This document shows positions 9,934-59,869 of a stretch of DNA of 64,000 nt, in pieces. The notes under the pieces were generated by a model. The model saw nothing but the letters and a program-made list of their open reading frames with translations. It was not told the origin of the DNA and did no database searches. The stretch is from positions 1-64,000 of the forward strand of contig JACRKC010000086.1 of NCBI GenBank assembly GCA_016235555.1. The letters are read 5' to 3'. Numbering within the stretch: position 1 is the first letter of the stretch; each line of letters starts with the position of its first letter. This DNA is from Verrucomicrobiota bacterium (GTDB lineage: Bacteria > Verrucomicrobiota > Verrucomicrobiia > Opitutales > Opitutaceae). The position numbers and the translations under genes are program-made.

Positions 9934-10067
9934 TGTGACTCAAACTGAGGTCAGTGATTTGTAGCGGCGGTCTATGACCGCCGAACGAATCCCCTTGGCG
10001 CAACGACGGCGGTCACAGTCCGCCGCTACAACCGAGGCATTCGAGAACCGACCTCAGTTTGAGTTAC
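9934..10067. repeat. Composite palindromic repeat, family A copy with type 1 arms
   Basis: The outer arms TGTGACTCAAACTGAGGTCA and its counterpart ACCTCAGTTTGAGTTAC (ending 10067) are reverse complements. Inside sits the hairpin core TGTAGCGGCGGTCTATGACC at about 9960, and its inverted partner CGGCGGTCACAGTCCGCCGC near 10006. Another full copy with the same arms is at 59736-59869. It separates the DUF4864-like gene from the Wsp-type operon. Confidence 0.9.
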
Positions 10068-26611: not shown

Positions 26612-26686
26612 GCTGTAGCGGCGGTCTATGACCGCCGAGCGAGCGACGTTGGTCTTCCGTCGGCGGTCATAGACCGCCGCTACAGC
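26612..26686. repeat. Family A hairpin pair without long outer arms
   Basis: The segment opens GCTGTAGCGGCGGTCTATGA (from 26612) and closes with the reverse complement TCATAGACCGCCGCTACAGC (ending 26686), a nearly perfect inverted repeat. This copy lacks the TGTGAC arms. It provides the stop codon of the convergent VOC gene (TAG at 26682-26680 on the minus strand). Confidence 0.92.
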
Positions 26687-28662: not shown

Positions 28663-28800
28663 GTGTGACAGGAAGTGCGTCAGCCAGCTGTCGCGGCGGT
28701 CTGTGACCGCCGGCGAACCTCCAGCATCCCTCCGTCGGCGGTCACAGACCGCCGCTACAACCAAGGCCTCCATTTGCTGACCTCCCTTCCTGTTACACCC
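28663..28800. repeat. Composite palindromic repeat, family A complete copy with type 2 arms
   Basis: The outer arms are GTGTGACAGGAAGTGCGTCA and CTGACCTCCCTTCCTG with TTACACCC (ending 28800). The core hairpins are TCGCGGCGGTCTGTGACCGC and its inverted partner GCGGTCACAGACCGCCGCTA. The core is shared with 9934-10067 and 59736-59869, but the outer arms differ. It lies in the gap between the Rrf2 and helicase genes. Confidence 0.9.
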
Positions 28801-53351: not shown

Positions 53352-54611
53352 ATGCGCCTGATGAACCCAAGAGCTTCCGAGGTGGAGCGCGTTGACCCCA
53401 ACGCGCTTTCAGGACGTGCGCCTACCCCGAGCGCGTTGGGGTCAACGCGTTCCCCCCGCCGCGCCTCCGTCCTCGTGATCGTGATGATCACCCTGCTCTT
53501 CGCGTCCTTCGCGCTCGTGGCCTTCATCGAACGCGCGACCAACGACCTCATCGTCGATCAACGCGAGGCTGAGACGCGCCGGCTCCGCCGCGAGGCCTAC
53601 TCGGCCCTCGAGGTCACGCTCGCCGTCCTGGAGGATTTTCGCGAAGTCGGCGGCGGCCTCCACAGTCCCGCCGAGGGTTGGTCCGATCCGCTCACCTGGG
53701 CCGGCTACACGCCCACCGAAGAGCGCAAGGTCGAGATCGCGTTCGAGGACGAGAGCGGGAAGATTTCCCTGCCCCGCGCCGATGCCCAGGTGCTGTCACG
53801 CCTCTTCCAGTCGTGGGAGATTTCGCAGAACGATTCCGACTCGCTGGCCGACGCCCTCATGGGCTGGATGCAGCGCGACTACACATACCGCACGGCCGTC
53901 ACACCCGACTACGACACCGGCGCCATTCCCTACGAGCCGCCCGGCCGCCCGCTGCGCTCGTTCCACGAACTCGCCGCCATTGCCGTCGTCCGCGAAAAAT
54001 TCTACGACACGGAGGGCCGCCCGAACGACCTCTGGCGCCGTTTTGCCGGCGCGGTGTCATTGCTGAACTTTCCCAAGCCGAATCTCAACGGCGCCCGCGC
54101 CGATTCCCTCGTCGCGCTCGGCCAGTATGATCTCACCGCGCAGCAGAATCTCTCCGACTACCTCGCCGGCTCGGGCGCGTATCTGGCGCAGGGGCCGGGC
54201 TACTTCCGCAATGTGGGCGATGCCGCCCGCCTGACCGGCGTCGGGGGCAACGCCAATGCCTTCGGCACCACCATCAGCGCGCTTCGCATCACGGTCACGG
54301 TCATCGACGGCCAGTCCCGCTTCCGGCTTTCGGCGGTGGTGACCCCGCGGGGTGGGGGAGCGACGGCGGTCACCGCGACTGCAACTTCCACCCGCACCCG
54401 TGCGTCAGCCGCGTCGACGCGCAACACTTCCCAGCAGCAGACTCAACAATCCACGGCCCAGCAAACCGCCGCCCAAGCCGCCCAGCGGGCCGGCTCCGAC
54501 ACCAAGGCCTCCGCGACGATCCGCGATCTCAAATATCCATTTACGCTCTTGGAAATTCGGGAAAACGATGAGATTGCTTCCCTTCCACCGTCTCCGCCCG
54601 CCCAGATCTGA
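53352..54611 (+). CDS. gspK: Type II secretion minor pseudopilin GspK-like, 419 aa
   Basis: GspK caps the pseudopilus tip. A hydrophobic segment SVLVIVMITLLFASFALVAF follows RRA, lacking Glu at +5 as is normal for GspK. A body with a helix-rich domain follows (SDSLADALMGWMQRD, FHELAAIAVVREKFYD, NLNGARADSLVALG). The 38 residues before the cleavage site are unusually long and largely encoded by a family B repeat (VERVDPNALS ... ALGSTRS). The C-terminal 90 residues carry a T/A/Q-rich low-complexity stretch. Confidence 0.85.
   Translation: MRLMNPRASEVERVDPNALSGRAPTPSALGSTRSPRRASVLVIVMITLLFASFALVAFIERATNDLIVDQREAETRRLRREAYSALEVTLAVLEDFREVGGGLHSPAEGWSDPLTWAGYTPTEERKVEIAFEDESGKISLPRADAQVLSRLFQSWEISQNDSDSLADALMGWMQRDYTYRTAVTPDYDTGAIPYEPPGRPLRSFHELAAIAVVREKFYDTEGRPNDLWRRFAGAVSLLNFPKPNLNGARADSLVALGQYDLTAQQNLSDYLAGSGAYLAQGPGYFRNVGDAARLTGVGGNANAFGTTISALRITVTVIDGQSRFRLSAVVTPRGGGATAVTATATSTRTRASAASTRNTSQQQTQQSTAQQTAAQAAQRAGSDTKASATIRDLKYPFTLLEIRENDEIASLPPSPPAQI
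53388..53453. repeat. Family B palindromic repeat inside the gspK leader
   Basis: GGTGGAGCGCGTTGACCCCA (from 53391) and its inverted partner GCGCGTTGGGGTCAACGCGT (ending 53450) form a hairpin of about 60 bp. It is in frame within the N-terminal leader of the GspK-like gene. Other copies are at 30541, 57664, 58739 and 61863. Confidence 0.92.
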
Positions 54612-57642: not shown

Positions 57643-57663
57643 ACCGGCGGCCAACAGTTCCGG

Positions 57664-57747
57664 GGGTGGAGCGCGTTGACCCCAACGCGCTTTCAGGATT
57701 TCCGCTCCCCGCCAAACCAGCGCGTTGAGGTCAACTCGCTCCACCTC
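57664..57747. repeat. Family B palindromic repeat ending at the apbE start codon
   Basis: GGTGGAGCGCGTTGACCCCA (from 57665) pairs with GCGCGTTGAGGTCAACTCGC, whose CTCCACCTC end touches the ATG at 57748. The ApbE start thus directly abuts the repeat, and the arm's bottom-strand GAGGTGGAG provides no ribosome site on the sense strand. Confidence 0.9.
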
Positions 57748-58731
57748 ATGCCCGTCGTCGCCCAATCGCACCGCCCGCCGCCCGCCGTCCCCACGGGCCC
57801 GGCGGTGCCGTTGCGCCAGCTCGCCTTCCGCGCGCTCGGGACGCAGTGCGAGGTGCAGTATGCCGCGGCGAACGATGTGCAGGCCGGCGGCTTCGAGCGC
57901 GCCGCCGTCGCGTGGGTGAACGCCTTCGAGGCGAAGTATTCGCGCTTCCGCGCCGACAGCCTGGTCAGCCGCATCAACGCCGCCGCCGGCCGCGAATGGG
58001 TCGCCATCGATGCGGAGATGGAGGGTCTGTTCCAACTCTGCGACACGCTCCACTTCATGACCCAGGGCGTGCTCGATCCCACCGCGCTGCCGTTGCTGCG
58101 GCTCTGGGACTACAAGGCCGCGACGCCGCGCCTCCCCACGGACACGGAGATTGCCGCCGCGCTCGCGCTCGTCGGCTGGAAAAAAGTCCAGCGTGCCCCC
58201 GGAAAAGTTTTTCTCCCGTCGCCCGGCATGGCGCTCGATTTCGGCGGCTTCGGCAAGGAATACGCCGTCGACGTCGTGGCGCAGATCGCGCTCGACCACG
58301 GCATCGCCAGCGCCCTGGTGGATTTCGGCCACGACATCCGTGCCCTCAGCGCACCTCCGGGCCGTCCCGCGTGGCACATCGGTCTCGAAGATCCGCAGCG
58401 CCCCGGCGCCGCGGCCGGCAGCATCGGCGTGGTGGGGAAGGGCGTCGCCTCGTCCGGCGATTACCTGCGCAGCTTCACGATCGGAGGCAAACGCTACGGC
58501 CACATCGTCGATCCGCGCACGGGCCGGCCGGTCGCCAACGGCTGCGTGCAGGCCACCGTGATCGCCGGCACCTGCCTGCAAGCCGGCGTGCTCTCGACCA
58601 CGGCGTTCGTGCTCGGCGTGCCGCGTGGCATCGAGTTCATCCAGGCGGTGCCCGGCGCCGAGGGATTGATCCTGACAGATAAGGCGCGCGCGCAAACCCG
58701 CGGATTTTTCAACTATGTCGCTACGAACTGA
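57748..58731 (+). CDS. apbE: FAD:protein FMN transferase (ApbE family), 327 aa
   Basis: ApbE attaches FMN covalently to Thr/Ser of exported proteins. The family motifs are present: FRALGTQCEVQYAA, FEAKYSRFRADSLVSRIN, GMALDFGGFGKEYAVDVVAQ, LVDFGHDIRAL, VASSGDYLRSFTIGGKRYGH and HIVDPRTGRPV. No clear signal peptide is visible with the chosen start, which immediately follows the repeat, so the original 5' end may have been altered. The frame overlaps the TlpA-like gene by 17 bp. Confidence 0.92.
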   Translation: MPVVAQSHRPPPAVPTGPAVPLRQLAFRALGTQCEVQYAAANDVQAGGFERAAVAWVNAFEAKYSRFRADSLVSRINAAAGREWVAIDAEMEGLFQLCDTLHFMTQGVLDPTALPLLRLWDYKAATPRLPTDTEIAAALALVGWKKVQRAPGKVFLPSPGMALDFGGFGKEYAVDVVAQIALDHGIASALVDFGHDIRALSAPPGRPAWHIGLEDPQRPGAAAGSIGVVGKGVASSGDYLRSFTIGGKRYGHIVDPRTGRPVANGCVQATVIAGTCLQAGVLSTTAFVLGVPRGIEFIQAVPGAEGLILTDKARAQTRGFFNYVATN

Positions 58732-59302
58732 TCGATTTCCGAGGTGGAGCGCGTTGACCCCAACGCGCTTTCTCCGCTCGCGACTGCTCCAGCGCGTTGG
58801 GATCAACGCGCTCCACCTCGCCGGCGTGCTGGCGCTCGCTTGCGTCGCCATCGCCCGCGCCGACGTGAAAGTCGGCGACACCTTCCCCGCCTTCGCCGCC
58901 GCCGGCGTCGTCGATCTCGCCGGCGGCACGCTGCCCGCGACCGCGGGCCAGGTGGTGCTCGTCGATTTCTGGGCGTCGTGGTGCGCGCCGTGCAAGGCGT
59001 CGTTCCCCGCGATGGCGAAACTCCACACCGATTTCGCCTCGCGCGGACTCGTCATCGCCGCCGTGAGCATCGACGAGAAGCCCGCCGCCGCCGCGAGCTT
59101 CGCGAAGAAACTCGCCCCGCCGTTCGCCACGCTGCACGACCGCACGCAGGCGCTCGTGAAACAGGTCGTCGTTCCCACCATGCCCACCACCTACCTGCTC
59201 GACCGCACCGGCAAGGTGCGCTTTGTGCACGAAGGCTTCCACGGCGACGCCTCCGACAAGCTCCTCCGCAAAGAAATCGAGTCGCTCCTCGCCGAAAAGT
59301 AG
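58715..59302 (+). CDS. TlpA-like thioredoxin with repeat-encoded signal region, 195 aa
   Basis: The thioredoxin domain has the active site FWASWCAPCKASFPAM, the cis-proline region VVVPTMPTTYLLDR and typical length. The N-terminal 50 residues form an export signal (INALHLAGVLALACVAIARA). Residues 9-35 are encoded by a family B repeat (WSALTPTRF ... QRVGINALHL), so half of the signal sequence comes from repeat DNA. It probably keeps the exported partners reduced. The start overlaps apbE. Confidence 0.9.
   Translation: MSLRTDRFPRWSALTPTRFLRSRLLQRVGINALHLAGVLALACVAIARADVKVGDTFPAFAAAGVVDLAGGTLPATAGQVVLVDFWASWCAPCKASFPAMAKLHTDFASRGLVIAAVSIDEKPAAAASFAKKLAPPFATLHDRTQALVKQVVVPTMPTTYLLDRTGKVRFVHEGFHGDASDKLLRKEIESLLAEK
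58739..58820. repeat. Family B palindromic repeat inside the tlpA-like signal sequence
   Basis: GAGGTGGAGCGCGTTGACCC (from 58741) and GGGATCAACGCGCTCCACCT (to 58818) are inverted. It lies in frame within the N-terminal coding region of the thioredoxin gene. Confidence 0.92.
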
Positions 59303-59735: not shown

Positions 59736-59869
59736 TGTGACTCAAACTGAGTTCAGTGATTTGTAGCGGCGGTCTATGACCGCCGGCGTGGCGCCAAGGG
59801 GATTCGTTCGGTGGTCCTAGACCGCCGCTACAACCGAGGCATTCGAGAACTGACATCAGTTTGAGTTAC
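59736..59869. repeat. Composite palindromic repeat, family A second copy with type 1 arms
   Basis: The outer arms TGTGACTCAAACTGAGTTCA and ACATCAGTTTGAGTTAC (ending 59869) are inverted; the core again has TTGTAGCGGCGGTCTATGAC and GGTCCTAGACCGCCGCTACA. It is nearly identical to 9934-10067, including CCAAGGGGATTCGTTCG in the loop (CGAACGAATCCCCTTGG in the other copy), which is inverted relative to that copy. Confidence 0.92.

Follow-up and report, generated by a model that had tools for sequence, protein, structure and literature searches.

Palindromic repeats within protein-coding sequence are already known from Rickettsia and Opitutus. The Rickettsia palindromic elements (RPEs) are in-frame palindromes in unrelated proteins, some of them N-terminal and expressed (PMC3733652), and RPE-4 and RPE-6 correspond to CGTC repeats. 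In Opitutus terrae, intragenic REPs of the GTAG type are short palindromes, often dimers, that lie in frame in uvrA and in RNA helicase genes (PMC3733652). Those situated at N-termini have been taken as possibly extragenic, and many N-terminal REPs were argued to be so through misannotated starts (Di Nocera et al. 2013, PMC3733652). The setting in which REPINs were defined is extragenic space (Bertels and Rainey 2011, PMC3116915).

We describe here a clear new case, a palindromic element within the tlpA gene of a Verrucomicrobiota bacterium, located in a 64,000-nt stretch of DNA (the window). As in O. terrae, copies of the element are present in UvrA-like and helicase-like genes, and by sequence the host belongs to the same broad Verrucomicrobia group, but the outer ends are GAGGTGGAG (GAGG) and not GTAG or CGTC. 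Moreover, whereas the N-terminal repeats of O. terrae may be extragenic, the start of tlpA is fixed here by its relatives. The element resembles RPEs in being palindromic and in frame in unrelated predicted proteins; it differs from them in sequence and phylum. We found no earlier report of a REP inside a signal peptide in the open-access text.

The palindromic element

The element consists of two inverted 27-nt half-sites with a spacer between them (GAGGTGGAGCGCGTTGACCCCAACGCGCT, spacer, inverted copy). Allowing up to three mismatches there are 363 half-sites in the 8.03 Mb genome (185 forward and 178 reverse), spread over many contigs and both strands, and none with a reversed control, so the repeat in tlpA is far beyond what chance would give. 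The tlpA copy belongs to a set of 27 strict pairs, and the half-site was also found in 19 of 56 other genomes searched. We surveyed 733 kb, mostly fetched around known copies, with the help of a model of codon usage trained on the genome itself, and read 149 elements, 107 of which are pairs. Among the 214 ends of these pairs the 27-nt body is highly conserved and the spacers are variable; the outer ends read (G/A)(A/G)GGTGGAGCGCG in the logo, with no terminal GTAG or CGTC. Folded as RNA, a stretch of 141 nt with the tlpA copy gives a single long hairpin (-71.8 kcal/mol, z -6.3).

The inverted doublet with short spacer and hairpin (107 pairs in 733 kb) and the high copy number genome-wide (363 half-sites) are as in REPINs with RAYT (PMC3116915), while the terminal tetranucleotide of the GTAG/CGTC REP superfamily is not present. 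In-frame insertion into unrelated genes and absence from their orthologues, as for RPEs, is seen in tlpA, a TolC-type gene and mnmA. The genome has ten Y1_Tnp matches, but no transposase is bordered by the element at the eight loci examined, the nearest approach being one half-site about 1.1 kb away (L068); mobilisation in trans is probable. A second palindromic family is present in the window (TGTAGCGGCGGTCTATGACCGCCG..., at 9960-10030, 26614-26684, 28689-28759 and 59762-59832), and since it is GTAG-tagged it resembles the published O. terrae REPs.

The tlpA leader and its relatives

Table 1. Features of the apbE-tlpA region and of a further element copy in the window
Feature	Position	Strand	Basis or remark
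Element copy in type II secretion system (T2SS) protein K-like leader	53379..53458	.	ORF from ATG 53352; T2SSK_1st 9.6e-10
Second element copy, spacer flush against apbE ATG	57663..57747	.	Outside ApbE
apbE, FMN transferase family, orthodox start	57748..58731	+	ApbE 5.6e-72; start comparison with relatives
tlpA, TlpA/ResA-like thioredoxin	58715..59302	+	Redoxin 1.3e-19, AhpC-TSA 1.8e-19
Predicted signal peptide coding region	58715..58861	+	49 codons; cleavage expected at ARA/DV; relatives aligned
REPIN-like palindromic element in tlpA	58741..58819	.	79 bp, encodes residues 10-35; ends from 214-end logo
Left half-site GGTGGAGCGCGTTGACCCCAACGCGCT	58743..58769	+	Exact match
Right inverted half-site	58791..58817	-	1 mismatch
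Ancestral hydrophobic core and c-region LAGVLALACVAIARA	58817..58861	+	Aligns with G026 LALPLALACAAFARA

The tlpA ATG overlaps the TGA of apbE (58729-58731) by 17 nt; that the start overlaps apbE had been noted in the first-pass annotation. That annotation also assigned TlpA residues 9-35 to the repeat; the repeat is real and in frame, and encodes residues 10-35 (RWSALTPTRFLRSRLLQRVGINALHL) together with the third base of codon 9. There is no stop codon in the tlpA frame through the element. The leader is MSLRTDRFP[RWSALTPTRFLRSRLLQRVGINALHL]AGVLALACVAIARA followed by DVKVGD, where the bracketed stretch is repeat-encoded, and the first Leu codon of the ancestral core LAGVLALACVAIARA is the last codon of the element. 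With its arginine-rich insert the n-region is 34 residues long and has a charge of +6; this charge, a core Kyte-Doolittle (KD) value of 3.02 and the ARA/DV site are those of a Sec signal peptide, as judged by simple scoring only. The proposal that the repeat forms half of the signal holds by length (26 of 49 aa), but the alignments show that the export-driving core is, like the cleavage site, ancestral.

Relatives without the repeat share the tlpA ATG and its overlap with the end of apbE. This ATG lies inside the conserved ApbE C-terminal motif GFFNYV, so that part of its conservation is due to ApbE. The close genera have ordinary signal peptides of 20-24 aa, compared with 49 aa in the window; examples are MSPRLKTLLALPLALACAAFARA/DLKVGD (G026), MSLRIKILLALVALAGVARG/EVKIGE (G025) and MWLRTRIVSCVSLVLAAAAAIRA/DVKVGD (G023). 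Alignment with such relatives, which the first-pass annotation had proposed as a check, thus shows an unchanged start codon and a signal peptide that is normal and lacks the repeat. In the DNA alignment the element of the window falls where the relatives go straight on from the start region to the h-region, and the net gain relative to G026 is +78 nt, or 26 codons; the element was thus inserted in frame between the n-region and the h-region. The insertion at this site is not conserved in any other genome compared, and in a scan of genome contigs the TlpA homologues recovered were all distant, with none from a congener. From the repeat itself, its frame, the shared start and the repeat-free state of the relatives, we put at roughly 0.85 the probability that a mobile REPIN-like element inserted in frame into the 5′ end of tlpA, between the n-region and the ancestral core.

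The 5′ end of tlpA appears from these sequences to have been extended repeatedly in this family. One example is G031 (L081), where the TlpA leader has 45 residues compared with about 23. The insertion there is not the same repeat, and derives from another REP-like sequence, of which G031 has 11 approximate copies. A second example is three species of the genus g27 (L075, L076 and L080) with in-frame leaders of ~104-110 residues from the same ATG, an extension of ~80 codons, for which the real start is uncertain. Two of these three leaders are 91% alike in DNA, and a search for repeats within them gave only 45-bp partial matches elsewhere.

Consequences for TlpA and choice of start

The insertion could have damaged tlpA, so that TlpA is made in low amounts or fails to be exported and the gene is decaying into a pseudogene. 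The element adds a very stable hairpin (z -6.3) 26 nt after the tlpA ATG that could hamper translation, and the 34-residue n-region is longer than in any repeat-free relative examined. However, the ORF and CxxC motif of mature TlpA are intact, and the mature part is 81% identical to that of G025, with differences of 21/12/61 by codon position; the dominance of third-position changes indicates purifying selection. Neither is the mature part accelerated, being as close to each relative as the relatives are to each other. The same kind of leader is present in a second gene (the TolC-type gene, below), and there are other long leaders at this site in other genera. A very recent insertion would show no decay yet, but on balance we consider damage unlikely.

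A misannotated start, with translation from TTG 58754 or GTG 58826 and the repeat wholly or partly in the 5′ untranslated region, is the objection raised to N-terminal REPs in general (Di Nocera et al. 2013), and both codons are indeed present in frame. We looked for a start downstream of the repeat that would give a normal signal peptide and found none; the sole in-frame start codon between the repeat and the mature domain, GTG 58826, was rejected because its product, MLALACVAIARA, has a leader of just 12 aa that lacks an n-region and any charge ahead of the core. TTG 58754 is inside the repeat and could be a start, but would still keep 21 or 22 repeat-encoded residues. Furthermore, G025 and G026 have no ATG, GTG or TTG near enough for a signal peptide other than the overlapping ATG. 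We therefore regard a misplaced start as quite improbable, and retain the ATG at 58715 and with it the in-frame insertion.

The repeat upstream of apbE

A further copy of the element ends at 57747 and abuts the apbE ATG at 57748, as had been noticed on first reading, where it was counted as a second adoption of repeat DNA as a protein N-terminus within about 1 kb. The ApbE N-terminus is in register with those of its relatives (window MPVVAQSHRPPPA, G025 MAVIAQSHRPPPA), most of which have a start at the corresponding position, ATG or GTG, 26-28 residues before FxALGT and with similar termini. The copy is therefore an untranslated 5′ spacer outside the protein, and the claim of a double adoption does not stand. 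A true second N-terminal case is present elsewhere in the genome, in the TolC-type gene. In the window, a possible second case is the leader of the T2SS protein K-like ORF (MRLMNPRASEVERVDPNALSGRAPTPSALGSTRSPRRASVLVIVMITLLF, 53352-53458), in which the element is read in another frame than in tlpA.

Other copies in the genome

Most of the surveyed copies are outside coding sequence. Of about 96 non-edge pairs, fifteen (12 by a second criterion) are open and in frame inside coding sequence. The intragenic hosts, housekeeping proteins among them, include MnmA, a UvrA-like protein, an ABC ATPase, a protein kinase, a lipoate ligase-like protein, a GT9 glycosyltransferase and a FecR protein, as well as a helicase-like gene. 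One example is the mnmA copy (G000:C19:85075-85143; L006), which is in frame and located at a gap in the alignment to a solved MnmA.

Among pairs upstream of genes, 20 are closed by a stop codon in or after the element, 18 have a start codon after it, and five have a start only upstream; tlpA is counted among the 18 because of its GTG. In all five of the start-only-upstream cases a hydrophobic stretch follows the element. These encode a TolC-type outer membrane efflux protein, a PhoD-like phosphatase, a DUF6702 protein, a YCF48/BNR-repeat protein and one protein with no Pfam match. In the TolC-type gene (G000:C26:101055-102437; L009, L115) the element forms the n-region of the signal peptide in the same frame and orientation as in tlpA, the leader being MKNRTTVP[RWSALTPTRFLRSRILKRVEVNALHL]IAIAFAAAITSAADA, and there is no start codon after the repeat. 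A G007 relative of this protein, 44% identical, begins MNGSTAPLRRKSWTWRVPALLMLLPGAFLRA and has an n-region without the element.

Secretory leaders might be a preferred refuge, with the palindrome a recurrent building block of n-regions across the genome, as its translations are arginine-rich and it would land where the peptide is later cut off. We hold this only tentatively and think it rather doubtful, since the enrichment in leaders is suggestive and not proved, coming from a small sample with predicted starts and with some classes assigned by eye.

Start codons also tend to follow closely on the element, with 13 of 33 downstream ATGs within 120 nt being 0-6 nt past its end (e.g. 57747/57748, and C1:32735; L148). 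The outer end GAGG looks like the core of a Shine-Dalgarno sequence, so the element may target ribosome-binding sites for insertion, and short intergenic spacers could also explain the clustering. That the tlpA insertion is a selected regulatory change, with the hairpin or extended n-region tuning translation, coupling to apbE or the rate of export, would fit this clustering and the strong hairpin beside a translationally overlapping start, but the clustering may come from short spacers and the insertion is conserved in no other genome compared, and we think such a role very unlikely.

Discussion

The preferred reading remains an in-frame insertion into the signal peptide. A REPIN-like element, mobilised in trans and probably by a RAYT-like transposase, would have transposed by chance into the junction between a short basic n-region (MSLR...) and the hydrophobic core, with the net +78 nt keeping the frame. 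This would have lengthened the signal peptide from 20-24 to 49 aa and given it a 34-residue n-region of charge +6. Cleavage by signal peptidase should still occur at ARA/DV, in which case the insert would be lost and mature TlpA left unchanged, and the element presumably survived because the affected part is removed. Export of the long leader is suggested by the strongly basic n-region, intact core and, by simple scoring, good cleavage site, and the insertion is probably neutral. More broadly, the n-regions of signal peptides, together with surface loops, appear to be permissive landing sites for the element, other copies being in frame in the TolC-type signal peptide, in more leaders of exported type and within about a dozen conserved genes.

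What is new here is the evidence from orthologues for one N-terminal insertion that is translated in a signal peptide, which for tlpA answers the published objection that N-terminal REPs reflect misannotated starts. It is also a warning that REP-rich genomes of the group to which the host belongs may have wrongly placed starts and signal peptides in their annotation. tlpA offers a concrete and testable case in which selfish palindromic DNA forms part of an export signal and the repeat-free state is seen in relatives, and it suggests why N-terminal insertions may be tolerable: the peptide is removed.
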